Assembly (NCBI RefSeq): GCF_032854445.1
Contig: NC_088296.1
Location: 22,867,853 to 22,931,852, forward strand
From: Liolophura sinensis
Lineage: Eukaryota; Mollusca; Polyplacophora; Chitonida; Chitonidae
DNA: 64,000 bases
Direction of reading: 5' to 3'
Positions 1 through 64,000 of the stretch are shown in pieces. Within the stretch, counting starts at the first letter, position 1. Each line of letters begins with the position of its first letter. The notes under the pieces were generated by a model that saw only the letters and a program-made list of their open reading frames with translations, did not search any database and was not told the DNA's origin. Made by a program: the position numbers and the translations under genes.

Positions 1-2533
1 GTCACTGACCCCATTGCAGTCCCTTGTGTGTTCGTGGACGCTACTGTCATACCATTCCCAGCACCTGCTGTGGTCTTAGACATTGTAGGATGAATCCCTT
101 GCTGACCGCCTGGGGTGTTAGCATTGGATTGGGTTGAATCTGATTTCATGCCAGTAGACGCTCCTGTATACATGTTTTGGACATTTCCTCTGCCAACCGT
201 TTGTCCTGCCGAACTTCCTGATGGTGACATCGTGCTATGACCACTTCTTGTAGTCTGTGGTTTCGTGTTTGTGCTTACCAGCGTTTTTCTGCCTGTGTAC
301 AATTCCTTTGTTTTGTCCACACCGCCATTTGTGTGGTATTTTGTATTTCCTTCGCCATTTTGATAAGATCTTGTTGCGACCTTTGGCGTCCCGCCAACTG
401 TTGACGATAATGACTGTGTTGTTGCATCAACTTTTCCCTGACTGACTATTTGAGTCACTCCCTGGACTTGATTACTACCTGTTACGGATGGACCACTTCC
501 AGTCTGCCCTTTTCCTTTCTCCGAGCTTGCCTTAGAAGATTCAGTAATTTTGTCCACACCGTCAATTCCATTTGTTGAAATCCTGCCGTACACAGCCTTA
601 GATTTATTATAGCCATGGCTGGCGTATGTGTTTTCTGATGACGGTGTTACCTGGGCAGACGCAGGAGCCTTTGGCCCTGAAATATTGCTTTGCCCAACTG
701 ATGTACTCGTGCCGGCAGAAGGTGATCCTTCTGACTTGGGTCCAATGGACGATTTACCCGTTGTGGGCATCTCCAACGGCCTAACGGTTGTCATTTCCAC
801 TTTTACGCTCTCAAAGGGTGTAGTCCCATCAGATTTGGTCGGGATCGGGTTCTTTTCTGTTCTTGACATGGGTGATTTTGTTGTGATTTTGAAGTTTGGT
901 GGAGCCCCTGTTGTGTGTGATGGGTCGTCTGTCTTTGTAATACCTTGAGATGTCCCTGGGAACAATTTTTTTGAAGAAGCTTCAGTTTGTCCAGGAGCTG
1001 TCGTCTTATAAGACTCTTCGCCTTGTCTAGGGTACACAGTCCGACCAGAGGGAGCATTTTCCTCTCCAACAACACCAGAAGTAGCATGTGTGTTGATTTC
1101 CTTCTGTTCCTGAACCTTTCTATCACCGGTCGACCTTTCACCATTTTGCGCGAATACTGTTACTGATTCCGAAGCTGATCTCTGATCGCTTGTGCCCACA
1201 GCTGTATTGGTAATGACCCAGGGTCTCGTGGGACCTGTTTCCAGGGGAAGGATAGTTCCAGGTCGTTGCTGCTTTGTAACAGACGGAGCATCGGTAGGTC
1301 TATAAGCACTTTGTTCCTTGTTATACCCGGTGACGACACCCTTTGTGTGCATACCTGATGAAGGCGGTGTCATATACGTCACGTCCGTTTGGCTTCTTCT
1401 TCCACTTCCCGATGGATCTGTGACACGTTTATCTGTAGCAGGGCTAGAAGACGATGTCGTTGCCCCAGACACGTTACTACTTCTGTCCAACCCAGCAGTA
1501 GGTACATACACATTTTTATCCTGATCATATTCCGATGGTTTCCTGTCAGGTAATGGTTGCGTCTTTTCCACGCTTGCAGTTGGCGGCCGCGTACTTTCTA
1601 ATGTAATTTTATTCACTTCCGTCGCACCGTCACCAATACTTTTCTTTACAGAAGTAGCTCCCGAATTGTCGGTCCCAAGCTGTGGAGGAGACGATGTCTG
1701 TGTGTAGTCCCCATTTCCTTTTTCATATTTTACAGAGGACCCCAGTACAACCCCAGTACTTTTCCCACCAGTTTGTTGCTTAGGCGTTGTCATTTCATCT
1801 TTAACACTGTCGGTTTCTGTCGTCGAAGCTGCTGCTGTACCCATTTTGCTACGAGCTGCTGGAATCAGTGAGTCCACTTTGTCAGTTATCGGTATTTTGT
1901 TGGCTTCCGACACACCAGAGGTAGGACTGTACACATTTTGGTCTTTATCATACCTTTTAGTTACAGCATCAGTTGAGGTCTTTTTCTGCACTTTTTGGGT
2001 CGGTCTTCCTGAACCGCCAGGTTCAGTCGTAGGTGCTGAACGTATCGGTGGACCGTTTGGTTGTGTTGAAACAACACCCGATAAAACAGTTATCCTTGGT
2101 ATAAGGCGCGCTGTTGCACTAGGACTGGGCTTATCTGTTTGTTGCTGTTGATTTGTTCTAAGTACACCTGCGGTAGGTGTGTAAACATTTTTATCCTTGT
2201 CGTATCCCTGAGTTTGTGTCTCTACACCCTGGTTTCCTGGCTGTGGCTGCCCTGTCACAATCGTCGTCGCGCCTTCTATCCGACTGTAGGATGTAGAAGT
2301 ATTCCTTGATGTTTTATCGTACACATGAGTCCCAGAGCCCAGGGAAGTCTTTTCCTTGTGAGCCTTGTAGGGATCCCTCTTGTATCCTTGTCTGTCTGGA
2401 TTTACCGTGTACATCCTGCGAAGTTCCTCTTCCGTAAATCCTTCCCCGATCTGAATATCGCTGCATGCGAAGAAATATTCCTGAGCACCGTACCCTAGCC
2501 CGTAATTATTGCCTTCTTCTCCCCAGTTAGACC
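1..2533 (-). CDS. Gene C exon 3: end of AA15-like core and a >800-residue repetitive Ser/Thr-rich tail (runs off left edge)
   Basis: One frame stays open for all 2533 bases; I walked every codon and found no stop. It starts after TTTTCAG and completes the Gly codon split by intron 2, reading SNWGEEGNNYGLGYGAQEY and then FFACSDIQIG. This matches NNWG-GLGYGPQETFIACSDIAI of gene A. After a basic stretch (EEELRRMYTVNPDRQGYKR) the sequence becomes Ser/Thr/Gly/Pro/Lys-rich with no further Cys. A motif of the form G-Y-[DN]-K-[DE]-x-x-x-Y-x-P-T-x-G recurs at 2163-2207 (GYDKDKNVYTPTAGV), 1911-1955 (RYDKDQNVYSPTSGV), 1488-1532 (EYDQDKNVYVPTAGL), 1284-1328 (GYNKEQSAYRPTDAP) and, weaker, 573-614 (GYNKSKAVYGR) and ~1690-1735 (KYEKGNGDYTQT). 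Spacing is about 65-85 residues. The C-terminus lies outside the window. Confidence 0.85.
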
Positions 2534-5500
2534 CTGAAAATACATTTAGCATTTAATTAGACATATTGGGGAAATTTACACCACTGGCATTTTCATTTCT
2601 GTGGAAACGTTATGCTATATGACAACTGAGATCAATGTAATAAACTTCAAGTATTCTTTTTACTTAAGCTGCACACGGATGTCAACCTTGCTACTAATTT
2701 AGCATTTATATGAACAGTTAGAATAAATCTCTGACTGAGGTAAAATACCAAGAGGCCCTATTTCACCGGTTGTGTGTGACTACTTCCCAATCACCACACT
2801 GCAGTTGCTTCTTTGGGTTTTTTGTCTATGTTGTAATTCTTGTGTTATAAGAAGTGTTTTTCCGTTTTATTAGCATCTGTGCAGGTATATTCTGTTCTGT
2901 TAGGTGAATGTAGGTATGCTCTCCTCCCCTTTTACTGTGTTGTACTATCTTCATTTTACTTTTGACACTAATGAGCTTTGTTGTCACAAAGAGACCACAG
3001 TTAAATAAAATCCAGATAAATCCAGACAGGCGACGATAAGGTGGTTTTTGATAAATGGTCTAACGTATCCGGTGAAATTCGGTTTTCTATAAATTCTTGG
3101 TGAGAATCCCGTTGCATAAACCAAGTTGCTAGTCCTACGTGTAAATGATTTAAACATGATAAACAACGAATAGTAACGGCTATTTCTGTGTTCACATCTT
3201 GCCTACTATACGTGTATGCGCTGATCAAGTTTAATTGGCTTACACATAACAAGCAGCAGTTTTAAAATTTGGAATTAGACCACCAACACTTCTGCTTTTT
3301 TTAAGTTGCTCGCTGCGCACAGGCGTTGAATTACGGCCTGATGTCAAAGCCAACGTGTAAAGTGCAACTTTTTACCGGTTTTTCAACTCTCACGTTGGAC
3401 TAATAACATTGAATGGGCATTTCAATGTGTTTCTGAACATATGTCTTCAAACCACATGATCATGGTTTGAATAAAGTCACAATTATTCGTGAGCTAAAAC
3501 TTACAAAATACATACTACATTCCATATCCTGGTCTTTTCTAGTATATTTGTATTGAAACCTTAAGGTCTAACTTAATATGGAAAAAAAATCTCAAATTGC
3601 ATTTATTTGTAAACTGAACCATTTCCCGGGGCTTTAAAATTACAGTGGTGCAAAGTAATCAATTAATCTACAATAACTACTGACCTTTTTTTTTAAAACC
3701 CCACCACCGAATTCTTGTACGTATGTGAAAACCTTAAAGACTGGCATACTAAACAGATGACTGATGTTCTATTATGTGTCAAGCAAAAGGCACGCTTTGA
3801 TTGGAGCTTGAAGCCCGGCATATGTGAGATCTTAGTACATAACTAGCCTCACAGCTATCCTTCACAATTTTCACTTAAGACTTTGTAAACTCGTTTACCA
3901 CCTCAAGGTGTTTGCCGTCACGCCTTTATTCATAAATCAAGGGTTATGCTTAAGGGCAATCAGCTCTTTACAGACTGAGGAATACTGTTCAGACAGATTG
4001 CTCGAGATCTAACCTCTGATAGTGGTAAAAAACGTTCAGAAGATTTAATGAGAGTAGACGCGCGGTTAATTAGGAAAAATAATCATATTATATTCGTTGT
4101 GATAAGAAAAGCAGAGTACTGTTGAATCCATTCAATGTTTTAGTGGTTAGTCGGAAGGATTAAAATACAGCCTGCAAACCTTAACTCGCAGGAATAAATC
4201 TGTATGCAGATTTTTTATTTATTGGGAGCGATTCATTCAACAGGAATTTTTCGTTTTGTTTTTCGGTTAATTAAATATTTATGTGTAATGTTAGAAAACA
4301 AGTGTTCCAGCTGACGAGGGGATTTTTTTACACATTCTTCTTTTATTGACTATTGGCCGCAACATAGAGAAATGTATATAACAACCCATACAATTTAAAA
4401 ACAACCAAGCGACTTAAGAGTCCTTTAGGTTTCGGATCATAGCTTAGTATATTTTGAAAACTTTATTACTGAAAGAGCCGCCATCATGAAACAGACTATA
4501 TTTCTTTTTTTTAGTTTCACAAGGGTAACAATTTAAACACTATTTTTAATGGGAATTATGTTAGATTAATCTCCATGGGATATTCTTCTTTTGGTTATCA
4601 AAATGGTGTCAGTGGCATTTTAAACATATGAATTGACTTGTAAATATTATCATAAACTATTCTAGATATTACACTAATCTTTGCACCAGCCTGCAAAAAA
4701 TCTTATCTTTTAAAATTGACGACATTTTGGCGATGTGGTCTACTATGTGACTTGTCAGAAAGTCATTCAACTGTTTTCGTTTATTTATTTGGTTGCTGTT
4801 TTACGCCGTACGTAAGAATATTTCATTTATACGACGGCGTTCAGCATTATGATGAGAAGAAACCGCGCCAAGCCCCGGGGAAACCCAAGACTATCCGCAG
4901 GTTGCTGACAGACCTTCCCACGTGCGGTACTCTAACCACCTAAGCCACGGAGGCCCCCAACTGTTTTTAATCATATTTACTATGACCAGGTCACGTTTGA
5001 AGAAATGTTCACAAAAACTCACTAAGAGCAGACAGACAATGCAGGAAACTGAGGAGCTGAGTTTGCGAATTTAAGAATGGCTCGAAGGAAATGGATGTCA
5101 CTTGTGCTTCCGCACAGGTCGAGTGAAATGATCTGTAAATTAGTGTCAAGAAAATATGTCTAACATCATTTTTGGCAAGTCACAAGATACAGTAGAAATA
5201 TTTTTTCTTAAGTGATAAAAGAATTGATCTCTTCCGGGTGTGTGTTCTTTCTTTTTAAAATTACAACGAAAATGCTGGATCAACTCCAAGTAGTTACGGA
5301 AATCATCCCCGTGGTAAACTGCATCCGGCAGAAGTCTGATCATACTGACCTGTCCGCCATCGCATCCTGAAGACACACTGAGCACATTTTAGTCCCTCCG
5401 GGAGCTGAAGAGGTATATGGTAATATCCATGGGCGGTATTGTCCGTCTCGGGGACGTACCACTTATAACCAACCACCGTCCCATTCAAAGGCAGGAGTGG

Positions 5501-8500
5501 ATGATCATTCATACATTCCACTGTGGCCGGAGCGGAGAAATTGTTATTTGGGCAGACGTGAAATTCGATATAGCCTTTCCTTGACGCCATTATTTCGACG
5601 ATGGCCACGAGTTCGTCGGAGACATTAAATGTGGCGCTTATCCTGCTAGTTGCGTACATTCCCCCGGCCTCGTTCGGGTAACTCTGGTTGATCATGTACA
5701 TGTGCGCTCCATCTATCACCGTCAAGTTGTCACCGCAGACCCCGCACATAAGATCTACCTCGAAATAGTCCTGAAAGATAAGAACAATTAGAAAATAAGT
5801 TCTTTCTGTTAAAGTTTAAACATGAAAGAATGATAGTTAACGGCTATGAAACCGGTACATACTTTTTAATTATTGTTACAAAACCTTTATATTCCCATGA
5901 CAACTGCACACATTTATATACATCCTAATCGATGCGCATCAGTGCATATGTGTCGGTTTGGTTCCAAAACAAATCCGTGCAATGCAATTTGCCAATCTCT
6001 GCTGACACCTGCAAAACTAATCTCACAGGTGTGCTTCTGTTGTAAACGTTAGCATTTTAGCAATTATAGAAGTATATGTTCGTAACAAAGCTGTTAAACG
6101 TGTCAACACATCCATTTTTCAGACACAATGTCCAAATCATGTAGAGAATGATGCATACATTTAATGAAGAATAGCTGACGCCAGATGAACGCCTACAGAC
6201 GTGGATAATAGATAAATGTTGTAGTCGTGCATGTTTTATAGAACGCATGTCGCATAAGACATATGTCTGAACAGGCTATGCAGCGATTAATGACATTAGC
6301 TCATCATGTAACCAGCACGCAATCATATAAAAAAGTGTGTCAAGCAGCTGCATTTTCCTTTTTATTCTTATATTTCCCGTACGTTCTATGGAATAGATTG
6401 ACGCAGTGCCAAGTTAGGTCACTGCGGAATGTATATGTCTCATGATGGTCAGTATCCACAAAATAGCCTGACCTCATATGTAATTTTATTTAAAACAAAA
6501 AAGTTACATAACTTGCCTATCTCCTTAATTTTCAAATTCCGCAGTTTGTTATTATTTGCTACTTCTAATCTACTTCTAATCCTCACCAACCCAATAATTT
6601 TTGTTTGGCTGGAGGAGAGGGCAACCACATTCTGAGGGCATTATGACATGATCTGCAATAGATTCATTTGTTTCACATACTCACGGACAAGGCGACTTTT
6701 AGAAAGCTGCTTATCGCAACTGAGAAGCGAAGGTGCACGTGAACTGAGAAAAAAAGTGGAACAATTTGACTATTATCCGCGTATATATTGGCTCTTGCAA
6801 TCTGTTTTCAAGCGTTTTTCGAAGGCCACAAGTAAATACTAGTCCCCTGCATCCATAAGCAACAGTGTTATTAACTGTCAATAACACAGTGGAAAAGGTA
6901 CCAATCATAACGTAAATACTAGTCAGTAGACCACATTCACATAAATGGTACGACTACAGATTATGTCTAGCCTTCCGACGGTCGTAGGCTCTGCCCGGTT
7001 GGAATAAAAGACCAATCCAAAAATTGAATAAAACATTTATATCTAATTCGGCAGTAAATAACCAAGTCATACAATGACCACTGTTCACGAATTGTTTACA
7101 CTTCACATTTCAATGTATCATCAGAAAGATTAAGTATGTGTACGTGCAAGACTTACAGGTTCGTGTACAATGGTTACAGACCAAATTGGCTCAAGGTAAC
7201 AAGTCCAAGCTAATTAAACAAGTAGATTAAATAATTAAGGTCAGCTTGTCAGGAATGGGGCATCGTACATGCAGAACCGGTTAGATGTCTGGTTTCTGTG
7301 TCGTCTCTTGTAAGATTATTTCTGTAGGCTGGAGAAAGGGGGGCAATCCTAAAAAAAACATGTATAAGCTTTACACTGTTTCAAAACCGATCTGCGATGA
7401 TGGGAATATAGGTATTCATGCTATGTGGTAGTGATAATACGATACTATGAATGTATGCTTGGGGTGTTACCTCGTACTTCACACTTTTTCAGTCATAAGA
7501 CGACGAGGAGTCATTACGCGTGTTTACATACAATGCGTCTTCTTGCGGCAAGGAGAGTCAACGCCGCCAAATTATTGCCGCCACTGCATACAAGTACATG
7601 TATCATACCGAGGACACCAGACATGACACCCCACCCAGTCACTTTATACTGACACCGTCCCAACCAGTCCACCATCCCTCACAAAAATATGGCGCTACAA
7701 CGCGACGTTACAGTACTACGCTACAGTACTATGGGGACGGAGATAGTCAGCTTTCATAGTGTGTCTGTCATAATAAAAATTGTCTATGCAGACAACAAAT
7801 GTCAAGTGTCGTTTGACCATCACATCTTACTGTTCGTCCACACCTGTTTATATAAGCTTCGTATTACGACAGTATATATTTACGTGGACGTCCTTTTATA
7901 AGCGTATAAAAGTTACGTTTCATGACATATGTCACCATTAGTGACGTTTAATAATGTGTAAGTATATACTGTTATTTTTAGTCGCAAGCGTTATATTAAA
8001 AATAATAACAAGTGCGCGAAAGCTTACGATTGACACACCACGAGAAACTTTAACCCTTGTGGAATGTTCACCCGTAGGGTAACATTTGTTGTTCTATGCT
8101 GGCAATAGACCGCGCGCAGAACTCACTGACCGAGAAACATACAGAATGGCTGTAAACATCTGATACATATATAACAAAGTTAAAGAGAAAAGGTGTTGAA
8201 GCACAAAATCCATGTAATTTATACTTTAATAGACTACTACATTGGGTGTAATTGACATTTGATGGCTTATACTACCAAAATGTCAACTTTCTTTTGTTTG
8301 TTCAAAAGGAGAAATCTTGTTTTATTACATTTTCAAATTTGAATTATACGGTATAGTATAAGGCTGATTAGGAATTTTACACAACATAATTTTACACAAC
8401 GTTAATGAAGGGGAAGGTGTTGAGGTTAAAAGTACACGTTAACACACTATCGTATTTAGGTTAATTGACATTTGATAGCTTACTCTACCAAACTATCTCT

Positions 8501-11500
8501 AGTTCTTTGTTTGAACTACAAATCCATTATGCCAAATTTAAAATCTGAATTTCAGTATCATAGCTCATTACAGAAGTGTATGTGTACTTTGTTTTCTTCC
8601 ACAACGGTAGTCATATAGAAGTTGTTAAAAGATTGCATCTCTGAGAACACACTATTAGATACTATCGAATTTAGGTTAATTGACATTTGGTAGCGTACTC
8701 TAACAAACTCTTTCTTTTTCCTTGTTTGAAATACAAATCCATTTTTGCCAAATTTTAAATACGGATTTTCATCATCATTGCTCATTAGGGAAATGTATGT
8801 ATACATTGTTTTTTTCCCCACAACTGTAGTCATATAAAAGGCGTTAAAACATAACAACCCTGGCAACACACTTTTAGATACTATCGTATTTAGGTTAACT
8901 GATATCTAATAGCTTGTGCTATAAACTGACTGTCTCTTTTCGTTGTTTGTTTACTTGACTTATAAATCCATTTTATCAAATTTCGAATTATCCAGTACAA
9001 CGTCTCATAAGGAACGTGTGTATGTAAGCGATATTTAAAACAATGTAGGGCGTTTCTTATTTATGTCTGTGTGATTTTCCCAGGGGATAAGTCAGGCTGT
9101 AAAGGTTCTTACTAAGATCTTGAACATCATTAATGGATAAAAAAAGAAACCAGTTTGACCTTAACAACACACTGAATAAGAGTGGTATTGCAAACATTTT
9201 GACAGCTAATTGAGCCTGACTGTAGTTCATGATAGACCCTGTATAGGTTTAAAAGAGCTGTAAAAAGAAAACAAAGTATCACAGCGTTGAAAAACGTTTA
9301 CCATTCATGGCTTTCTTCAGCACACATTTAACTCCCCGCAATAAAGAATTCGTTTTTCAAAACTGCTGTTTTTGTTCTACTGTGCTCTTTCTCATCGTCA
9401 TGGTAAATAAAACCTCAAGTATTCCCTTGTGTGGAACACCGCTATAATAGCAATGTATTGTAGTGTGTCCATTCCGATGACTGTTAAAATATGCTCTTTC
9501 ATATATATGTATTATATCAGACGGCACTTATAGAGTAAACTTAAACATACTTGTTTTGGCAAGAAATAAGGGATAAAGGTGTGACACAATACACAACAGA
9601 TGAAAATCTGTTTACTTTTCCATAGTTCCCATGGTATGAACTAGTTCATATTCCAGGTAACTCATCATCACACGTCAAGAGTTTTAAGGTAGAACTGACT
9701 GACAGCAGGCGGAAACTTACGACGAAATGTATCCACGACCATTGACGGAGACTTCCGATGATACAAATACATGTGTATAGGGCGATTGCTCTCTAATGGA
9801 TTACACTGTAAGCGCGCGCCAACATGCATCCTTTAAGCCAGCCTAGATTTGTTCCCGGTTAGGAAGGCGTACTTTGATGTCGTAAAAGGTGTTACTGTTC
9901 ATCGAAGCGTATCAGAACGATCCACAAACTATTGGTTAATGAGACATTTCTTGACAACAAAATATTCAAAGGGAACACAAGTAATGTTAAAACCTTTTTT
10001 AATGTCCCATTTTATATTATAAAAAATTTAAGTAGAATCACTAACTGAGGGGCCATTAAATTCAATCAAAAAGCCATAAAATGAAAATGAAGTGTAATGA
10101 TAGATACGTATCTTATCATATCCGGCCTGTAATACATAGTCATTAGATGGCTAAGGATTTGTGCAGTAGTGAAATATACTACCTATACAGAGCAATGTGG
10201 AAAAAAACTTTGGAAAGATATAAAAACATGCGATTTACGACGTTTGTTACATAACTGCAACACTAAAATTATCGTTTTATTGGTTTTATTGCCATACCCA
10301 AGACATATTCACTTAGATGACAGAAGAAAGATATAAAGGGAGACTAAACCAGAGACTAAACCAGAATACCCACAGTATAAGAGTGCAGCTTATCCATGCA
10401 TGGAGCGAGGCCTAGATTCGAGCTTGTAACCTCACTGGTTGCGACGAGAACATCGCTTTAGCAAAAAAAAATTCTAAAATAATTCCAATTAAAATCCATA
10501 TTTCAAAAAGAATCATATTCCTCAGTAAAAATACACTATTTAATCACTAGTTTTGATTCAATTAAACGAATCTGTGCTGTAATAGATGAATTGATATTAG
10601 CTGATAATGCAATACATAGCGAATAGGACATTTTACAAAGTTGTACTTCTGATTTAATTTAAGATGCATGGTTTGGGGGTAAAACTATATAAGAGATTGA
10701 GAGGATATATCATGCTATCACACCTGTGAGGCATATGCACGCCCCAGCAGGCTCCAAGCATTATGATAATAACAGTTGAGAAGAAAATATCGGGGCAGCA
10801 CGTGTAGTACGAAGTCTAATCTTTTTGTGCCAGCTCACGCTGGCTTCCTTTCCGGCTGTACGTGGGAAGGTTTGCAGCAACCTGCGGATGGTCGCGGGTT
10901 TCCCCCGGGCTCAGTCCGGTTTCCACCCATCATAACGTGGCCGCCGTCGTATAAGTGAAATATTCTTGAGTACGGCAGCCAGCATTATTGTGGGAGGAAA
11001 CCAGACAGAACCCGGGGGAAACCCACGACCATCTGCAGGCTGCAGGTAGGCCTTCCAACGTACGGCCGGAGAGGAAACCACCATGAGCTGGACAGGCTCC
11101 TGGACAATTACACGCAAACTATAAGTTGCAATAATAACAGGCACAAACATAACAGAAGCAAGTGTACCTCATATACACACCGTCTGCCATGATTACGAAA
11201 ACACCAGTATAAAAAGGAACAACTGTTAGCAAAACACATATTACGCTTGCAAGAATGTATATATCAAGTAGGCTTTAGGCTATATGCTGCTGTATGCAAG
11301 CACACAAAACTACATGTGTAGACATATATACTCAAGGAAAGTTTCCCCGCAATCAGCTAATTGTACAGCGCCAGCCTTAAAACTATTTAACAGCCCATAC
11401 ATACATGTATGTGCAACGTTTCCGTTGTTGTTGTTTGTCTTGCATTTAAAGCATTCCCCTGAATCCACCCTACGGCAATGTATTACTAATTACAGGACAA

Positions 11501-14500
11501 CAAATTACGGACTCTTTAACTTAAAATAGAATCACTTAAAACAGAACTCATTTTAGTCTTGTTATCGGGGAATCACTGTACAATAGTTACATTTATCTTC
11601 CTTTATGGGCAGTAAAATCATACACAAACGATCGAGTAAACAATGAAATTCTCAGGCCGAAGGCTAAACGACTAATTAAATGTTAATTGGTGTTTGTGTG
11701 GTGTGGTATAAAACAATTTGAAAATCTTTAGCTATCCCACCTGACCTATGCATTTTTTGACGTAAAAGAATTCAAGCTTTCATTCATCTGATGGTTCAGT
11801 GGTATCATGACCTTCTACATAACGCGATTTGATTTTTTTTTGAAAATACTGAATATACCGTTCAGGTATATGCATGACCGGCTTCCACGAAGCACACTTT
11901 ACATCTAACTATGCAATGACGATGGGCTGTATAAAACATTACGTCAGAATATTGCAAATTAATGTGCTCACGGTATTAAGATAGCATCGATTAGCTGATT
12001 AATCGTAAGAACTGCTGACGCATCCTGGAAGATAAATGAATACATATATATTTTTTAAAAATATTTGCATAATTTGCAATTGTCTCTACTAAGGTTTGTA
12101 TCTTAATATTACATCTCCTATAAGTCTAACCAATCAAACGTGCTGCGTCTCCCACTGAAAAGAAGACTTGTTACCACGATTGTAGCGACTGATGATGTGG
12201 ATGACAAAAATGCTCCGACATCTGAAAAGGCATGACGATATATCTACGCCTAGACACCCACGTCAACCTATAATATATGGTTATACAGTGGAAACTTCAG
12301 TATACCGGTCACGAACCTGTGACAGGTCCATGCATACCTTACTGGTACAAGTATATACTACGCCCCACACTTCAAAGGGCTTGTACATGGTACATCTTAA
12401 TCACTAGACCATATTGATATGGTGACACTTTTTTCTTCGCCGTCTACCTAGTTACTTATTTCATTAGGAAACGTTACGACCTACACACAGAAGATGTTGT
12501 TCACATATGTGTGATAGATATCAAAGGTGATCAGAGTACATTGGTAGATACCCCCAACCACCTACCTAATGTATAAGAGCGAGGCCAGGCCAGCATGATG
12601 CATTCTTTTGTCATCACTGTAGCAGACAAGGCTCCTAATAATGTCATCTTTATCTGCAAGAATTATTATCATGAAATTCTTGTTCAAGAGCTATGTACAT
12701 CTACAACAACATCCACGTATTCTGCTACTACATGTACTCTGGAGGAACTATTTAATAAACACAGAACCTTTCTTAAATAATGGCGCCTAAATATATCTAC
12801 CCGTCACACAGAAATACCACAACTTTACTGGATTCCTAAAATGCATAAATCCCCATACAAGGCTCGATTTATTGCGAATTCAAGAACTTGTACCACCAAA
12901 CTCTTGTCAACCCTACTTACGAGAGCGTTACAAGAAGTAAAGTCATTTTGGAATAAGTATTGTTGTGGCACAACAAAAAATTCAGGTGTCAACTGCATGT
13001 GGATTCTTACAAACGTCAAACGTCTTACAGAAGAACGTGATGCTCATATGCATGTACCGTACAAAGACGTATCCACATGGGATTTCTCTACTCTCTGTAC
13101 TACAATTCCTCACAAACATCTTATCGAAAGAATATCGTCGTTAATTGTCTAGGTATTTATTAAAAGAGGTAACCGTTACATTAACACCAGAAGCAACAAG
13201 GCTTTCTTTAGTTCTACTATTTATAAACGTTACCACTCATGGGATGTTATATTATTTTTTGAATTACTTGAATTTCTCAATAAATAGCATCTATGTGAAT
13301 ATCGGGGATACAATTTACCAACAGTGCATAGGTATTCCAGTGGGTACCTATTGTCCGCCTCTTTTGGCAGACCTATACCTGTTTTCATATGAATACGACA
13401 ATATGCAGAAATTACTTAAAAGTAGTATCTTTAAAGATGGATCCTTTTCATTTACCAAGCGGTATATTGATGATCTACTGGCGTTAAATAATCCCCATAT
13501 TGCTGAAGCGGTGAAGAAAATCTATCCGCCTTCATTGGATTGAAAGGAGACAACAGATAGTCCTGATGGTACATCTTATTTGGATCTATATCTGTACAAA
13601 GACGAATTAGGTCTCTGTTCGCGCCGCTTTTACGACAAAAGGGATAATTTCAATTATGATATTGTAAATTATCTATATTTGGATAGCAATATACCAAATG
13701 GTCCTGCATATGGCTTATACATATCTCGTTATGTAGCATTTGTCAGATCTTACGTTAATTGTGATGACGTCTGTGTCACAAGTTGTTAGTTCAAAAACTA
13801 GCTTGTTTAGGATATTCCATCAAACGCCTTCATTCTGAGTTTTTCAAGTTTTACAATGAGTATAATACCCTTGTTGGCAGGTAGACTAACTTCAGAACCT
13901 CTGACGATCTGCATTATGATCAACCACATAGACGGCGCTGTTATCCTTATGTACATATCTATCGAGTACATGGCGTTTAACAACATAGATGGCGCTGGTT
14001 GACGAGTGTAAGCGTCTATCTTGTAGACAGCTTTTATGCAGATCAGCATGCCAAATGTAACATTATGGATGGCGCCTCTTGTAGTATGAGGTCCTTACAT
14101 ATTAACGGGAAAGACGTAATCGTTCGTTACTTTTGAATCACAATCTGTTGGTTTTAGGTCTGTAGCGCTCGTCATGTTCGAACTGTATTCAATACCGCTT
14201 AACCTTGGGCTAGGGACCGTAGAGGTAGCCTTGCTCATTACATCTGCAGGATGCCTTTAGGAACAGTAGCAATCAAAACGCGATTGAAATACCTTGTTTA
14301 ATTGTTATTTGACCTGGAACTCATCCATGGACTACAAATTTGAACTTTGATATGGAATTCATGCCTGGAATATCCACTGTCTGCCCGGCATCACTGAAAA
14401 CTGATGACCGCTTCTCTCTTATGTGTAACCGGGTTTATATCCTATTTATATAATTTCTTACATGCCTTTGTCTTTTGGGAGCTAGTGTTAAACGTTGTTT

Positions 14501-16716
14501 TGGAAATGGATCTTGCGATTATCGACTTGGAACGCCTGCATTTCATTGCATTGATGAGGGATACATTTAGGGATGCATTTAGGGATGCATTTAGGGATGC
14601 ACATACAGAATATAATATGTCGACGTGATTTCCGCCGTTGTTTTGGGTCATCTGTAACATAATCATTACTTCCAAAATTTGTCTAAAGATGAAACCAATT
14701 AAATGTTAAATTCTCCCCATTACACCTATTTTAAAGCATCCTAACTGGCACTATGCTTGTGTCAAGTCTGAAAACATAGTAGATGTAGTGGACTGCCCTT
14801 TTTTTTTTTTTTTTTCCTAGTTTTATTTCACTTTTGGGATTGGTGAGTCAAAAGTCTAAAAGCCTATTATCAAGCTGAAAATGATCGTGTAACCTTTAAC
14901 CCTAGGGCTTTGTTCATGTATTCCATACCATTGGCTGATGTGTCCGCCATATCTAAACAGTCTAAACAATGCACAACTTGTACAACGCAACTAACACATA
15001 TCCAGACGCAAAAATACCGCAAAAGCTGGATTTCAAAATGCGAACAGCTAAGCCAAATGCTGGCAAACTTTCAATATAACCCGGTATTTTCTTACACCAG
15101 CGAGAGTGTCACTCCAGTATGTAAAGCTGTAGCTAAGTTAGCGTGAGGTGGATTTGAACCCTCAAACTTCTGGCAGCACGTTAATGCCTTTGTGTGTTAC
15201 CTGCTTGTGTTATACCACATGGAGGGCGCAGCTGGATTCAAAATATCTTGGAATAAAAATGACTCATTTGGAATTCATCAATGAAACCATGTGAAACACC
15301 TATATATTTTCTTACTCTGAAATAAAAGAGGGCAAGGAGGTCTTTTTCTTTGTAGGCACTTCACGTAGACTGAGCGTATCATACCCATGTAAATTCACAG
15401 GGACGTACGGTATGTATGTAGGCACCTTGACCTAATTAAATCCAAACATCTGTTCATTAACATGAAACTGATAGCAGATTTGCTTGAATGCAATGATGAG
15501 CATCTATACGTCCTTCTTATATATGCGTGTGCAGATGATCTTAGATGCAGCCTAATTTGAGTATAGTAAAACTACAACAGCTGGATAAAGAGAACCAACC
15601 TGTTTTACATTGTAGTACATTTTATTAGATTTATGGTCCTCTGCGATCTAAACCATCCACTTGCATTTCACAGGTGTCCGATGTGCCGTTATACATGTAA
15701 GACGTGCAAACTCCCATAAACGTACGAGTCTAGACAATCCAAGTACCGGTTCTGTTCCGTGCGTGCAAAGGGTAAAGAGCACATTGTGAATCTCTGAAAG
15801 CTGCTTTAGCTGTCAGGCGTTTTGAGTATATTAATCACGCCTCATCTGTATGAATGATAAACTGTATATAAACAGAGACAATACCGGGCTAAGCTGACTG
15901 ACTACATTGCATTAAATCATATTATAGCATTCTTTGTTGTCGACATAGATCGTGTAAACAATGTGTCTACACGCAATTCCACATTATAATATGTCCCTCT
16001 AATTTATCAACAGCCCTAAGATTACAGGGTGCACAATGTAGGGCGCATAAATCGGTGGGTAGGCAATGGCTTAGGCATATATGTATTCCAGTAGCATTTT
16101 TTTAAACGACATGCTTTATACTAATTCTATACAGCGGAAATATACTGCAATTGTATGGAGTACTAAAAAAAAGTAATAGTGTGGACCATGCACTTTAACA
16201 CATTTTACCCATCATACCAGCCACTTGAAGTTTTAAAGATGTTGCAAAAATCCCATCACAAATTACTGCTAGAATCTATGCGACGAAACCGACATTTGTG
16301 TACCAGCCGTCAATCAAAGTGGACCATCCAGATCAATAACCGCAAGGCCAATTACCCAAAGGACGTTTAACACAAACTATACGAAAGAACTAAAAAGTAT
16401 ATACATGCTAAGTGTGAAAATAGGACGGGATCATGCAAAGATAAGCGTTGTTGATAGCTTAAAGTCATTTAATGCACAGATAAAAAAAAAGAAAGAAAGA
16501 ATAATAACTGACCATATACATGCCACCACAGTTGACCAGATGGTCCTCAAAGTTTTCAGGGGCGTCCCATTGTTCCCGCCATCTACTGGAACGGCCAATA
16601 GGAAACATAAGCCTTGCTTGGGCGTCAACGACATCTAGTACACCAGACGCCAAAATCACAGACAGTAAAATCCACTTGGATTTTAAAGGGTCCTTCCGAC
16701 CCTTTCCTAACACCAT
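1..16716 (-). CDS. Gene C: AA15 LPMO-like secreted protein lacking both copper histidines, with a giant repetitive tail (3' end outside window)
   Basis: Three exons join in frame: 16513-16716, 5350-5770 and <1-2533, giving at least 1052 residues. Introns are phase 0 and phase 1, as in genes A and B. The protein starts with a signal peptide (residues 1-32, ending VVDA), followed by QARLMFPIGRSSRWR and a FEDHLVNCGG block, the AA15 N-terminal pattern. AA15 enzymes bind copper through the amino-terminal His, a second His and an axial Tyr. Here position 1 of the mature chain is Gln33, the second His is Arg132 (ASRKGYIEF) and the axial position is Trp206. The cysteines shared with A (NCGG, MCGVCGD, HVCP, CAQC, ACSDI) are kept, so the fold is probably intact while copper catalysis is not expected. 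The tail is Ser/Thr/Gly/Lys-rich and has no Cys. ATG 16716 is chosen because it has a good context (aagATGG) and no earlier ATG lies in frame. Family assignment is strong; loss of activity is inference. Confidence 0.85.
1284..2207 (-). repeat. Recurring Tyr-rich 15-residue motif within gene C tail
   Basis: Four clear and at least two weaker protein-level repeats sit in the long exon. Two tyrosines seven residues apart are flanked by Lys/Asp and followed by Pro-Thr. The DNA between the motifs is not obviously repeated, so selection or an old repeat structure, not recent tandem slippage, keeps them. Confidence 0.75.
2534..5349 (-). other. Gene C intron 2 (phase 1, about 2.8 kb)
   Basis: Bounded by donor GTCAGT and acceptor TTTTCAG. 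Apart from one internally deleted SINE at 4780-4958 I see only AT-rich sequence and short chance ORFs. Confidence 0.75.
4780..4958 (-). mobile_element. tRNA-derived SINE copy, internally deleted
   Basis: Reads on the plus strand as the reverse complement of the window's common SINE: tail TTTATTTATTTGGTTG, then TTTTACGCCGTAC, the GGAAAC/CCGGGGAAACCC body and a terminal AAGCCACGGAGGCCCCC head. Most of the tRNA-like region is missing. Confidence 0.8.
5350..5770 (-). CDS. Gene C exon 2: AA15 core with Arg in place of the second copper histidine
   Basis: Encodes residues 69-208 plus one base. It opens DYFEVDLMCGVCGDN, matching GKCGVCGD of A and B, and carries NEAGGMYATSRI, aligned with NEGGGMYGRGMI of gene A. 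The segment aligned with TANHMGFFEFSLCP (A) and TWGHRGWMEFRLCP (B) reads MASRKGYIEFHVCP. The end, CVFRMRWRTG, aligns with CVLQWKYHTG of gene B, so the axial Tyr is Trp. Donor is GTCAGT, as in exon 1. It is four to five times richer in Met/Asn than its neighbours at the start of the exon (AHMYMINQ), a small insertion relative to A and B. Confidence 0.85.
7490..7690 (+). repeat. Interspersed repeat family 2 (GACGACGAGGAGTCATTA type)
   Basis: Starts with gacgacgaggagtcatta and runs through gtcttcttgcggca, gccgccactgc and accagacatgacacccc. The same order of motifs occurs at 46828-47110 and a short piece at 32243-32275, so it is an interspersed repeat. The class is unknown to me. Confidence 0.65.
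8225..9050. repeat. ~215-bp tandem repeat, about 3.7 diverged units
   Basis: The string cgtatttaggttaattgaca recurs near 8451, 8666 and 8885, with an earlier, more diverged unit near 8240, giving periods of 213-219 bp. Each unit also shares a tacaaatccat block, a catagctcatta block and ccacaa-gtagtcatata. Divergence is substantial, so the array is old. Confidence 0.8.
10829..10976 (+). mobile_element. SINE copy, left arm of an inverted pair
   Basis: Carries ccagctcacgctggcttcc, cgtacgtgggaagg, the cccccgggctc body and gccgtcgtataagtgaaata up to tacggc. It lacks the A-rich tail and is joined directly to a copy in the opposite orientation. Confidence 0.85.
10977..11105 (-). mobile_element. SINE copy, right arm of an inverted pair
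   Basis: Begins at agccagcattattgtggg with no tail and runs through ggaaaccagacagaac, accatctgcagg and ggccggagaggaaacca to aggctcctgg. With the copy at 10829-10976 it forms an inverted repeat with arms of about 130 bases and almost no spacer. Confidence 0.85.
12590..13880 (+). mobile_element. Decayed Penelope-like element reverse transcriptase remnant
   Basis: In order: FVITVADKAPNNVIFICKN, YWIPKMHKSPYKARFIANS, CTTKLLSTLLTRALQEVKSF, YKDVSTWDFSTLCTTIPHKH, GIPVGTYCPPLLADLYLFS, RYIDDLLALNNP (catalytic YIDD core), YLDLYLYKDELG, RFYDKRDNFNYDIVNYLYL and LGYSIKRLHSEFFKFYNEY. This order is that of a reverse transcriptase of the Penelope-like type, as I remember the family from other marine invertebrates. 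The copy is spread over several frames and is clearly dead. I could not find an endonuclease domain or element ends. It sits in intron 1 of gene C in the opposite orientation. The alternative is another non-LTR-like RT lineage. Confidence 0.7.
14558..14602. repeat. 12-bp tandem repeat (atgcatttaggg), about 3.7 units
   Basis: Near-perfect units of atgcatttaggg; a chance ORF over it repeats FRDA. Young and short. Confidence 0.85.
16513..16716 (-). CDS. Gene C exon 1: signal peptide and AA15-like N-terminus with Gln at position 1
   Basis: Encodes residues 1-68. A hydrophobic stretch (WILLSVILASGVLDVV) and a VDA cleavage context leave QARLMFPIG as the predicted mature N-terminus, where AA15 proteins have HGRLM-like sequence. 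The exon ends NCGGMYM at donor GTCAGT. A pyrimidine-rich TTTCTTTGCAG lies 17 bases upstream of the ATG and could be the acceptor of a 5'-UTR intron, so an untranslated exon further upstream is possible. Confidence 0.8.
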
Positions 16717-24307: not shown

Positions 24308-24968
24308 CTTACCATGACCCAGCGGTTATGTGCTACCATGATTCACACTTTATAACATGTGGATTATTTCCAAGATCCACCAGCGATGTTTCGCCACGGC
24401 TTACCACTTAAGCCTTACATGCACCATGATTATCCTGTATCACGATTCAGTGTGTTACCATGATTCACCTATTACGTGTTACCATGATTCCCCGGTTATG
24501 CACGTGTTGCCATGATTCCTCGGTTTTACACCTGCTGTCATGATTTCCCGGTTATACACGTGCTACTCTGATTCCCCGATTATACACGTGTTGTAATGAT
24601 TCCCCGATTATACACGTGCTGCCATGATTTCCCGGTTTTACACCTGTTGCCATGGTTCCCAGGTTATACATGTTACCGTGACTCCCGGTTATTTACGTGC
24701 TACTATGATTCCCCGATTATACACGTGTTACCATGATTCCCCGGTTATACACATGTTACTATGATTTTCTGGTGATACACGTGTTACTATGATTTTCTGG
24801 TGATACACGTGTTGCCACGATTCCCCGCTTATACACGTGTTTTTTCTAGTGATACACGTGTTGCCATGATTCACCAGCTATGCGTTTCCTTCATTCACCG
24901 CTTATTTGTCACCATCATTTGCCGGCTATGTGCATTTGTTGCCATGATTCACCGGTTATATGTCACTA
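24308..24968. repeat. 28-bp minisatellite, about 22-24 diverged units, rich in CACGTG
   Basis: Unit of the form cacgtgttgccatgattcc + ccggttata. Units vary by 1-4 bases in length. The palindrome CACGTG is kept in many units (for example near 24482, 24558, 24587, 24613, 24721, 24777, 24805, 24834, 24856). Confidence 0.9.
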
Positions 24969-27836: not shown

Positions 27837-28179
27837 AATAATAAAAGCGATTAGCACTCAATCATAAGATTTGTCGCACTGCATATTTATAGTTATGCAC
27901 TTATCTACCTGGCAAAAGCGATGGATATTTCTGTTGTACAATGTCAACAATTGAAAGAGACCTGCGCCGGTTATGCCAAGGGCGCCGAAGAAATCTGCTA
28001 ATTGTTTTAGCGGCTGTCAAACAGAATGTAATTAATTAAAGCACGACTATTTACATTACGTCTCATCATATAGTCTGAACAACACATCCTTCTCAAAGCT
28101 GAATGTCTGGAGTTCCAAGCTCTCTTTGCCCGTTGTGATTTGATGGCAAAAAGCTGTCGCTGGCGCAATGGTGTGGAGG

Positions 28180-28340
28180 TTTGATCAGTCATTTGTTTGA
28201 TCAGTCATTTGTTTGATCAGTCAATTATTTGATTATTCATTTGTTTGATCAGTCATTTGTTTAATCAGTCATTTGTTTGATCAGTCATTTATTTGATCAA
28301 TCACTTATTTGATCAGTCATTTGTTTGATCATTCATGTGT
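28180..28340. repeat. 16-bp tandem repeat (tttgatcagtcatttg), about 10 units
   Basis: Units tttgatcagtcatttg with point changes. Each carries the palindrome TGATCA. Confidence 0.9.
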
Positions 28341-28399
28341 TGGAGATCACATAACAACACAGCATTAACATGCATGGTGCTCATATGATTTCATGATCT

Positions 28400-32747: not shown

Positions 32748-33181
32748 TCAGCAATTACAACAGCAGTGTGTCGCAGGACAGTAGCCTCGTGCACAGTTCG
32801 TAACGCACCACGCATCCAACCCGCCGACAGACCGCCATATTCCAACAGAACGGCATTGAGAATCATCCGAGCTTCTCGACCCAGCATCAAACGCGATCTC
32901 TGGAATAGATCTATCTGAATCTTCTGAATCCTCTTCGTCTCTGTGACGATGCCACTCCCTTCTTCTCGGCGGTGTTACTGGTGTAGTTGTCGTTGTCGTT
33001 GTTGTTGTAACCGGTCTGGGTCTACCCACCAATGGTCTTCTGCCCGGACGTCGTGCGCTGGCCGCCGAAGACACGACTCGGGTTTCTCCGGCATGGATCG
33101 CGATGTCCGAACAAGCAATGAATGTTTCCTGAGGCCCGTAGCCCAAACCACTGTGTCCGTCTTCTATTCCCCAGTTGTTAC
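32748..33181 (-). CDS. Gene A exon 3: end of LPMO core, charged linker, Cys-rich C-terminal module
   Basis: Opens at TTTACAG and completes the Gly codon from exon 2, then NNWGIEDGHSGLGYGPQETF and ACSDIAI. The last ~35 residues are CRSVGIW, DAWCVTNCARGYCPATHC and CCNC with a TGA stop. The pattern C-x(n)-D-x-WC-x2-NC-x4-CP-x3-C recurs in gene B, so this is a real module, possibly for carbohydrate or matrix binding; I cannot name it. Confidence 0.88.
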
Positions 33182-36100
33182 CTGTAAAGTAACATCAAAC
33201 AGATAGGTATATCATTAAAAATGTATGATTGCAATTTGTTTGAGCATTTTTTTCGATTGGTGTGGTGCGCTGTAATCAAGAAAATTCCACATATAGGACT
33301 GGAGCCAGCATTACGGTGTGAGGAAACTGGAAAAAGCCCAAGTGAATTTCACAATCATCCGCAGAGTGTTCATAATTTTTTTCATCCATAATTTTTTTTG
33401 TATCTAAAATGAAACAGAAAAGTTTGGCCTAATAGAAGGCAACATTGTAGCCTACCGGTAGCTGAAATATTATCCTAATTTTTCCCTGTTAATTGTATCT
33501 CGTGAAATTGTAAGTTAATTGGAGTAAAACGCCAATTAAATACATAAATCAATAGAAAAAGAAATAAACATCTGTGTGGATACCAACATTTGTAAGTTTC
33601 AATACACTTGCACGAATTAATAGCGTTCCTCAGAAAAATCACGCTACATGTTGTCATTTATCACCGCTTACCTGATTTCCAGTACCACCGGAAAACGCAT
33701 TGCGTACACGTCACATCCGCCGGAAGTTTGACGGCGATCTTGTATCTCTTTGGAGAAACATCATTGTGTAGCGGCCAGCGTGTTCCTGATCCATCCGCCA
33801 GTTCTAAAGGTTGAAAACAATCCTCTGTTGCTGGTACAAGGGGACTATTATGAGGACAGAGACTGAACTCGAAGAAACCCATGTGATTGGCGGTGATTTC
33901 TACTTCCGTTTCGATTATCTCGCCTTGTGAGTACTCTCTCACAATCATCCCTCTGCCATACATTCCACCACCCTCATTGGCTCTTGGCTGACTGTCTCGA
34001 TAGTTATCCCCGCACACTCCGCATTTTCCTTTGTTTCGTCCCCAATGGTTCTGAAACAAAAGCAACAGACAAATGGCTTCACCATATAAAGTCTGGCCCC
34101 AATTAGTTAAAATCTGTGTTATTAGTCGAGAGAGTTCGTATTTTCACCCATAAAGGCCCGGTGTTAGGCATATGGGTCAAGGTGATTACGATGATTCGAA
34201 TACCAACGCTAAGGCATTGCAAAATAACTGGTTTAATAACATTTTTATGGGGCCTCCGTGGCTCATTTGGTTAGCGCGCTAGCGCAGCGTAATGACCCAG
34301 GAGTCTCTCACCAATACGGTCGCTGTGAGCTCAAGTCCAGCTCAAGCTGACTTCCTCTCCGGCCGTACGTGGGAAGATCTGCAGCAGGTCCAGGTCTGGT
34401 CGTGGGTTTCCCCGGGGCTCTGCCCGGTTTCCACTCACCATAATGCTGGCCGCCGTCGTATAAGTGAAATATTCTTGAGTACGGCGTAAAACACCAATCA
34501 AATAATTAAATAAATAACATTTTTATTACTTGACTCTTTATAAATTTACGACCCAAACATTGCCTCAGAATCGCTAAATATTCTTTTACATTTAAATTGC
34601 AAAATTCCTAAATTTTATTATATAATAGGAAAAGTTCGACGTGCCTCTGCATCCGCTAAGCTCGGAGCCACAGGACACAAAGTGCTCTCTAACAGATGTT
34701 ACAAGAAATGCTACATGCTACGTACTCTCACACAAATTATTTCACTCGGTGTCAATTTTTCTGTTTTTATTCCAGAATGTTTACTATATATATGTAAAAT
34801 ACTTTTGACTGGCTCTAAAGATATAATTTACGATGATGTTGTACATGTTTTATGTTTTTCAATGTGTACATATTTTATTAATGATAGAGAAAGGTTTCAT
34901 GACCATGGTAATGGTAATAACGATGTTAACATTGTAAATAATAATTAATTTATTTCAACTTATACTCTGTTATCTGAAATATGTATTCCCATACTTATAT
35001 GTATGTACTTTGTTAGCTATTATGTTGTGAATTGATGCTTTGATGAAATCTCTTTAAATAAATAAAGAATGAAATTACGTCCGAACATAATGTAATGGAA
35101 TTTAGGTCCAGCTCATGCCTTGAGTTCAAGACCAGCTCATGCTGGCTTCCTCTGCGGTCGTACGTGGGAAGGTTTGCCAGCAACCTGCGGATGGTCGTGG
35201 GTTTTCCCCGGGCTCTGCCCGGTTTCCTCCCACCATAATGCTGGCCGCCGTCATATAAGTGAAATATTCTTGAGTACGGCGTAAAACATCAATCAAATAA
35301 ATAAATAAATATATAAAGGAATTTGTCCAGGAAGTTGGTGCGTTGAAAATTGATTATGATACTTTACTTCGTGTTTGTAGGTACATGTAAATATAGGCAT
35401 GCACCATGGGTTAAATGCAGCAATTTTTGCACAGTATTTACAATAATATAGCACCATGTATACTACTATTCAATACAATCTAGGTTTCGGACAGAAACTT
35501 AACCCAAACACAGCGTGAACACTATAGTGTGTGCATATCTGTATGTCACCCCTACCATCTACTTAACTGTACTTGAGGAACATTAAGTAGCATTTCCTAT
35601 GTGACAAAACTGGCTTACCACAGTAACACGATGGTACCAGGGTCAAAGCTAAATTTGTGACTTAACACTGCGGCTGTCCTACATTGGTCAGCACATAAAC
35701 AGTTCCGTGAGAACCGTGTGGCGTGAATGTCTATGACGAAAGAACCCCAGCTTCTACTTTTTTGTCAGATAACAGCTGGAGTAAATTTCATCAGTTACAA
35801 GGAATCAAGACCTTGTTTTCACTTCCGTTTTTACGAATCGAACTCAAGTCTCTGTATTTTAGGGTGTAACGGATTATTTTTTGTGCCAGGCGGCCATTTT
35901 GGTATACAGGTTTATGTGTGATATGCAAAACAATGAACAATGTTTGAACTCTGGACGGGTGTGAGTTTTACTGATCAAAATTCGAAATTCCTGGCGATCC
36001 GGCACACCGTGTCGGGATAAGGAGGTCCCTTTGACGTTGCGGGGTCCCACAGCCAACTGCCAGCTCAGGCAGGTCCAACTCTTAACGATCTCTAGTGTGT

Positions 36101-55939: not shown

Positions 55940-56436
55940 TTAATATGGCTTTAGGCGCTGACAGTCGTCGTTACAAAATGACCTCGGGCAGAACTGCATT
56001 CTACAATTGCCACGGCACCAGTTGTCGTAAAACAGACCTCTGTTCCCAATGGCTCGGCACGCCCACACAAGCGCCTCATTTTCCTCTCTGGATCTAGTAG
56101 TGCGGTCCGTGATTCTCCTCGTAGACGTGGCTGTATGAGAAATTGCTGGAGAAGGTGTTAAAGTCGTTGTTGGTCGCCTGGTGGATGTCGTTGTCGTTGT
56201 TGCTGCTTTTGTGGGAGATGGTATGGTCGTTGTTGTTACAGTCCTTGTTATTGTTTTTGGAACAGGTCTAGTCGTCTTTCCTGCTGTTGTTGTTGTTGTG
56301 GAAACCAAAGTAGTCGTAGTCGTCGTCATTCTAGGGGTTGAGGGATCTATAGCGATATCTGCGCATGTGTAGAACTCTTCTTGGGGCCCGAGCCCCAAAC
56401 CACACTTTCCTGTCGGTTCACAGCCCCAGTCTTTGC
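55940..56436 (-). CDS. Gene B exon 3: core end, Thr-rich linker, Cys-rich C-terminal module
   Basis: Starts after TGTGGTAG and completes the split Gly: KDWGCEPTGKCGLGLGPQEE. The linker is dominated by Thr with Pro, Lys and Arg. The final module, CRAIGNRGLF, DNWCRGNCRMQFCPRSFC, NDDC, aligns with the end of gene A. Confidence 0.92.

Positions 56437-60589: not shown

Positions 60590-64000
<3,411 letters not shown>

Follow-up and report, generated by a model that had tools for sequence, protein, structure and literature searches.

Gene models and exon structure at the locus

Three AA15-type genes lie on the minus strand of the window (the whole 64,000-nt stretch of DNA that was analysed): gene A at 58405-55940, gene B at 38551-32748, and gene C, which begins at 16716 and continues beyond base 1. 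Genes A and B retain both histidines of the copper brace and an axial Phe. The gene models are as follows.

55940..58405, minus strand: gene A, canonical AA15 (His1, His91, axial Phe); exons 58405-58214, 57664-57280, 56436-55940
32748..38551, minus strand: gene B, canonical AA15 (His1, His91, axial Phe) with a 6-Cys C-terminal motif; exons 38551-38369, 34050-33672, 33181-32748
16513..16716, minus strand: gene C exon 1, likely signal peptide (residues 1-32), then QARLMFPIGRSSRWR...NCGGMYM; GT donor, phase 0; placed by AA15 exon-1 similarity
5350..5770, minus strand: gene C exon 2, central part of the AA15 domain; placed by tblastn to P0001-P0007 and by the AlphaFold2 exon model
1..2533, minus strand: gene C exon 3, end of the AA15 domain, then 814 Ser/Thr-rich, Cys-free tail codons; crosses the window end

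All three genes (gene C in its visible part) have three exons each; the first intron is in phase 0 and the second in phase 1, their positions are equivalent, and the borders are GT-AG throughout. This agrees with an earlier sequence-only reading of this DNA, which had matched both intron positions of gene C to those of genes A and B. The gene C introns, of 10742 and 2816 bases, also agree in position with the AA15 family, and exon 1 resembles AA15 exon 1 (e.g., that of the retrieved protein P0001, E 2e-7, tblastn). Both gene C donors read GTCAGT, and those of genes A and B GTAAG. A hydrophobic segment and a V-D-A|Q site directly before Gln33, read by eye in the translation, suggest that the protein may be secreted with Gln33 at its mature N-terminus.

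The gene C frame was counted at 1052 open codons in the window, with no stop or frameshift; the earlier claim of an intact frame of more than 1000 codons thus holds as a window-limited count. None of the usual marks of a pseudogene (stops, frameshifts, broken splice sites) was found in these 1052 codons. Since the window end truncates the frame, gene C is incomplete here.

Copper site of the gene C domain

When spliced, the gene C domain matches TdAA15A (5MSZ) with an E value of 7.3e-29, and it scores 29.8 bits against the Pfam family LPMO_10 (PF03067; cut-off, 23). Of the features of AA15 by descent, gene C shows the sequence similarity and the conserved cysteines; of those expected of an AA15 enzyme, the axial Phe/Tyr is present, and the N-terminal His1 and the second brace His are absent. 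In TdAA15A (PDB 5MSZ), the copper is described as held by His1 and His91, with Tyr184 axial and Ala89 near the copper, and the binding face as carrying the coplanar aromatics Tyr24 and Tyr166 (PMC5823890). His1, His91, Tyr184, Ala89, Tyr24, and Tyr166 align with Gln33, Arg132, Phe229, Ala130, Phe56, and Trp212 of gene C, respectively, the placement of Gln33 resting on the alignment with other AA15 rows because the printed 5MSZ match begins at residue 4. The codons concerned, all located by alignment, are listed below.

16618..16620, minus strand: Gln33 codon CAA, His1 position, expected mature N-terminus
5579..5581, minus strand: Arg132 codon AGG, His91 position of TdAA15A
5357..5359, minus strand: Trp206 codon, not the axial position
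2523..2525, minus strand: Trp212 codon, aligned with the surface aromatic Tyr166 of TdAA15A
2472..2474, minus strand: Phe229 codon TTC, axial position (Tyr184 of TdAA15A)

Conservation was judged against a reference of 46 canonical AA15 rows; this excludes 5MSZ, genes A and B, and the brace-less rows, as well as nine that are fragmentary or chimeric (P0006, P0052, P0054, and P0056-P0061). The sequence-only reading had claimed three changes at the active site, namely Gln33 for His1, Arg132 for the second His, and Trp206 in place of the axial Tyr. The alignment bears out the first two (CAA at 16620-16618 and AGG at 5581-5579) and corrects the third: Tyr184 of TdAA15A aligns with Phe229, and Phe occupies this column in 46 of 46 canonical rows, so that Phe229 is the usual residue. 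With a normal axial position, two of the three claimed changes are therefore real. Trp206, rejected as the axial residue, is the tryptophan within RWRTG, with which exon 2 closes, and precedes Phe229 by 23 residues; the Trp of SNWG is Trp212, aligned with the surface residue Tyr166. An aromatic residue is found at the Phe56 position in 44 and at the Trp212 position in 40 of the 46 canonical rows. Because both copper ligands are replaced, by Gln and Arg, the gene C protein should not oxidise glycosides, and copper chemistry with neither ligand present is, as judged from these residues, very unlikely.

Conservation of the AA15 domain

Gene C keeps 28 of the 36 near-invariant columns (those at least 95% conserved in the 46-row reference); gene B keeps 35, gene A 32, and the canonical rows never fewer than 33 (median, 36). 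The residues lost are H33, P40, G49, G110, T129, H132, Q203, and W204, the six outside the brace being changed as P40I, G49Q, G110S, T129M, Q203R, and W204M. All eight near-invariant Cys columns are occupied, as the earlier statement that the core cysteines are kept would have it. Ten conserved cysteines are described for the Thermobia AA15 proteins (PMC5823890), and the Cys pair before the QE motif is absent, among 59 rows, in gene C, gene B, P0001, and two others that carry a deletion at this place. Retention in gene C drops with the conservation class of the family (28/36, 20/33, 14/35, 7/38, and 6/47), which at the sequence level is as expected of a domain evolving under family-like constraint.

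An AlphaFold2 model of exon 2 alone, built on a 28-row alignment, has a mean pLDDT of 71; block means reach 84-93 across exon residues 51-140 but stay under 50 across residues 1-32 and 34-45. The model may in part add to the evidence for a retained domain. Between genes C and B, pS is 0.91 and pN 0.42 over 188 codons, with silent sites saturated. Taken on the alignments, an AA15 domain that has lost the histidine brace yet retains most conserved residues is well supported. Of the earlier interpretation of gene C, the part that stands is the loss of the brace with 28 of 36 columns kept, backed in part by the exon 2 model. Two further features of the domain were noted: five N-glycosylation sequons (residues 83, 96, 117, 145, and 164) in window 5350-5770, and, following CGVCGD, an insertion some 10 residues long.

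The mucin-like tail

The tail frame of gene C contains no stop over 814 codons in the window, against 26 and 49 stops in the other two frames; under independent bases, the chance of 814 stop-free codons would be 9e-20. Its composition is 14.9% Thr, 12.5% Ser, and 10.7% Gly, with no Cys. A motif, Y(D/N)(K/Q)(D/E)(K/Q)xxYxPT, recurs at residues 319, 403, 544, and 612, and in weaker form at residues 478 and 850. The four clear copies are as follows.

2166..2204, minus strand: tail repeat copy YDKDKNVYTPTAG, residue 319
1914..1952, minus strand: tail repeat copy YDKDQNVYSPTSG, residue 403
1491..1529, minus strand: tail repeat copy YDQDKNVYVPTAG, residue 544
1287..1325, minus strand: tail repeat copy YNKEQSAYRPTDA, residue 612

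The best 13-residue self-match of the tail has 11 identical residues, and at most nine were reached in 300 shuffles. For the four clear copies, pS is 0.63 and pN 0.21 (0.75 and 0.34 for all six), as compared with 0.73 and 0.72 for unrelated tail windows, a test that is biased because the copies were chosen by amino-acid similarity. Silent divergence near saturation combined with a lower pN points, as far as such codon comparisons go, to long protein-level constraint on the tail, which tells little about the AA15 domain. When the first 388 tail residues were compared with Pfam, one match was returned, with an E value of 0.032, under its cut-off; blastp of the tail against the 61 retrieved proteins described below gave nothing below E 1.

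Homologues and other brace-less AA15-like proteins

A protein search with 291 gene C residues gave seven matches of 590 candidates, at no more than 36% identity; a search for long full-length orthologues gave none among 452 candidates; and an alignment-based search listed 60 matches, with 7999 candidates scored. Orthologues with the same Gln/Arg pair, for which the sequence-only reading had proposed to look, were absent among the matches listed in three protein searches.

In the 61 proteins retrieved, 49 align as His/His (P0060 with a doubtful N-terminus), and the second His is missing in eight, being replaced by Leu in P0007 and P0046, by Asn in P0047, P0049, P0050, and P0059, by Asp in P0051, and by Gln in P0057. 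Five of these eight, with a readable N-terminus, also lack His1 (Gly in P0046; Gln in P0047, P0049, P0050, and P0051). In the remaining rows, P0006, P0052, P0056, and P0061, the second His is present, and the N-terminus is either missing or chimeric. As gene C and P0007 were part of the query alignment, these counts should not be taken as representative frequencies. P0057, with Gln at the second His position, is a 149-residue fragment missing its N-terminus.

Gene C is thus not the sole brace-less AA15-like protein. Four Mercenaria/Ruditapes-type (bivalve-type) proteins, P0047, P0049, P0050, and P0051, combine Gln at position 1 with Asn or Asp at the second His. Between pairs of them, identity is 63-86% in the domain, 26-64% in the linker, and 69-93% in the part of the C-terminal region that they share; since identity in the domain exceeds that in the linker, the brace-less domain has stayed better conserved than the linker of the same protein. 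In each of the four, the brace-less domain is followed by a linker with dibasic sites and then by a Cys-rich C-terminal region. For this region, no Pfam family was found in P0047 and P0051 at E up to 1, and a comparison with solved structures gave three matches (E 0.79-0.95), all aminopeptidases; on visual inspection, the region resembles a secreted cystine-rich ligand. The second group is a snail pair, P0046 and P0007 (Batillaria and Pomacea), in which Leu stands in place of the second His; P0046 has Gly at position 1, and P0007 lacks its N-terminus. P0046 has no LPMO_10 match at E up to 1 and P0007 scores 34.8 bits, their mutual identity being 74% over 185 columns.

Phylogenetic placement of gene C

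The main tree held 59 of 65 rows (the 61 proteins, the three window genes, and 5MSZ), the fragments P0056-P0061 having been dropped; for a reduced tree of 51 rows, gene A, P0055, P0039, P0041, P0006, P0045, P0007, and P0046 were also dropped. The end branch of gene C, at 2.25 changes per column, is the longest of the 59 rows and, at 1.97, again the longest in the reduced tree. In the free tree, the brace-less rows stand at three places, requiring three changes: gene C alone, P0047/P0049/P0050/P0051 (support 100/100), and P0046/P0007 (100/100). Several unions were not rejected, namely gene C with the snail pair (p-AU 0.20), the snail pair with the bivalve-type group (0.15), and all three together (0.32).

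By overall identity, the best match of gene C is P0003 (42-43%), which is also the nearest by path in the reduced tree; by path in the full tree, gene C lies closest to P0001 and gene B. In one comparison with eight other rows, gene B was the most similar (39%). A union of gene C with gene B was not rejected (p-AU 0.35; 0.41 in the reduced set), nor was one of all three window genes (0.46). The Cys pair missing in gene C, gene B, and P0001 leans towards an origin of gene C near gene B, and gene C is probably a local duplicate.

Comparison with known systems

Gene C shares with AA15 LPMOs such as TdAA15A (5MSZ) the domain by sequence, the near-invariant cysteines, the surface aromatics, and an axial aromatic, and its neighbours, genes A and B, are typical members; it departs from TdAA15A in having Gln33 and Arg132 in place of the ligands, in lacking a further Cys pair (as do gene B and P0001), and in carrying at least 814 Cys-free tail residues. 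The four bivalve-type proteins resemble gene C in their AA15-like domain, Gln at position 1, lost second His, and long extension, but differ in having Asn/Asp rather than Arg, an axial Tyr, a linker with dibasic sites, and a conserved Cys-rich C-terminal region; in gene C, no Cys occurs in the 814 tail residues within the window, beyond which the gene continues.

LPMO relatives with an incomplete brace have been described in fungi. Brace-less LPMO-like proteins are known in fungal AA9: there are AA9 proteins with Arg or Lys for His1, no activity having been identified for the Arg protein that was characterised (PMC6950343), and LsAA9B, a protein of this kind, lacks the brace (PMC10354095). These are likewise LPMO relatives without a full brace, but they are fungal AA9 proteins for which, in those accounts, the change lies at the N-terminal residue, whereas gene C is an animal AA15. 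The Egh16-like family (PF11327), described as a distant, fungal LPMO relative that retains His at the N-terminus, with Asp at the second position (PMC6950343), is likewise incomplete in its brace. For insect group I LPMO15-1, AA15 proteins with 6-cysteine C-terminal repeats are reported, the three proteins described keeping the brace and acting in moulting (PMC9156745). Gene C shares with these an AA15 domain followed by an extension, but in the insect proteins described the brace is kept, and no 6-Cys motif was found in the gene C tail within the window. One such motif, C-X15-C-X3-C-X4-C-X4-C-X-C, stands at the end of gene B (window 32757-32855), and P0008 has five copies. Disordered Ser/Thr-rich tails are reported as common in LPMOs, including AA15 (PMC8615602). 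Among the matches listed in the literature searched, a coverage outside which most subscription papers fall, no description of a brace-less animal AA15 was found.

Possible function and alternative explanations

The retained residues, the pair of aromatics on the face, and the mucin-like tail are together suggestive of an anchor that would bind polysaccharide within mucus or the extracellular matrix. On balance, gene C is somewhat more plausibly read than not as a diverged AA15 gene whose copper site is gone and whose product would bind polysaccharide, without catalysis, through a domain joined to a mucin-like tail. An N-terminal Gln in a mature protein often forms pyroglutamate by cyclisation, and Gln33 might do so once the signal peptide is removed. 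The N-terminal domain, with its conserved cysteines and with Phe56 (for Tyr24) and Trp212 (for Tyr166) flanking a flat binding face, could bind a chitin-like polysaccharide without cutting it, and the long repeat tail, putatively glycosylated, could then tie a secreted matrix or mucus to that polysaccharide. That selection has kept the gene for another role, as the sequence-only reading had proposed, is plausible; for gene C itself the support is indirect, no Gln/Arg orthologue having come up in the three protein searches. Selection on gene C is indirectly supported by the 28 of 36 columns kept, the 814-codon open tail, and the repeats with near-saturated silent sites. The binding anchor also draws on the existence of other brace-less AA15-like clades, in one of which the domain exceeds its linker in conservation. 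The longest branch and the six additional conserved residues lost speak against it and are compatible with relaxed constraint; the GTCAGT donors and the lack of an orthologue among the matches listed weigh on the same side.

Relaxed constraint or early decay of the AA15 domain, with the tail alone, or nothing, still under selection, is the most serious alternative, though we consider it rather improbable. Besides the longest branch of 59 rows, it would account for the loss of eight of 36 near-invariant residues (including Q203, W204, P40, and G49), the departure of the gene C donors from GTAAG, and the lack of an orthologue among the matches listed in three protein searches; it fits poorly with 1052 codons free of frameshifts and stops, with eight of eight near-invariant cysteines kept, and with retention graded by conservation. 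A single older loss, placing gene C in one Gln1 brace-less lineage with the Mercenaria/Ruditapes-type proteins, is unlikely: Gln1 and a long C-terminal extension are common to both, and their union as one clade withstands the AU test (p-AU 0.40; reduced set, 0.20), but the second ligand is Arg in gene C and Asn/Asp in the others, the axial residue is Phe as against Tyr, and the tails show no similarity at E below 1 (blastp). Furthermore, gene C, like gene B and P0001, lacks the Cys pair that those proteins keep, and the free tree needs three changes among the brace-less rows.

There is little to recommend metal binding through other ligands with some redox activity left. Ala130 and Phe229 of the site are kept, but neither brace ligand remains and Arg is a poor copper ligand. 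Hardly credible is an origin of the odd residues in assembly error or in the use of a His-bearing first exon. Gln33 (CAA) is one change from CAC, but the Arg132 codon, AGG, differs from CAT and CAC at all three bases, and a single-base error was rejected as its source. A second first exon, or a second exon 2 with His, was not found for gene C by tblastn (matches with E below 5) or by pattern scan, the former being the better test because the pattern scan missed gene B's own exon 1; the alternative His1-bearing first exon that the sequence-only reading had named as a check on its claim was thus not encountered by either method. Exon 1 of gene B (His1), on the same strand, also ends in phase 0, and a chimeric splice to gene C exon 2 is conceivable; since a single exon 2 was found for gene C, such a chimera would still lack the second His.

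With gene C read as a binding anchor, a broader and more tentative proposal is that brace-less AA15 domains are a recurrent animal invention. Among the proteins examined, up to three lineages would then have lost the brace separately, in two cases with Gln, which can cap itself as pyroglutamate, as the first mature residue, and the domain would have been reused as a non-catalytic polysaccharide sensor or anchor. In gene C it is joined to a mucin-like tail; in the bivalve-type clade it precedes a linker with dibasic sites and a strongly conserved Cys-rich region that may be ligand-like. If the domain is indeed retained as a binder, surveys of AA15 genes over-count chitin- or cellulose-cutting enzymes, and such proteins would be a natural means to separate binding from catalysis on the AA15 fold.

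Other features of the window

Rfam and tRNA scans returned no matches. In intron 1 of gene C, at window 12781-13543, two overlapping open pieces resemble a broken retroelement reverse transcriptase; they have no Pfam match and may be related to Penelope-like elements. Tandem arrays occur at 24452-24841 (28 bases, 14 copies), 28179-28341 (16 bases, 10 copies), 63264-63487 (75 bases, three copies), and 8446-8913 (219 bases, two copies).
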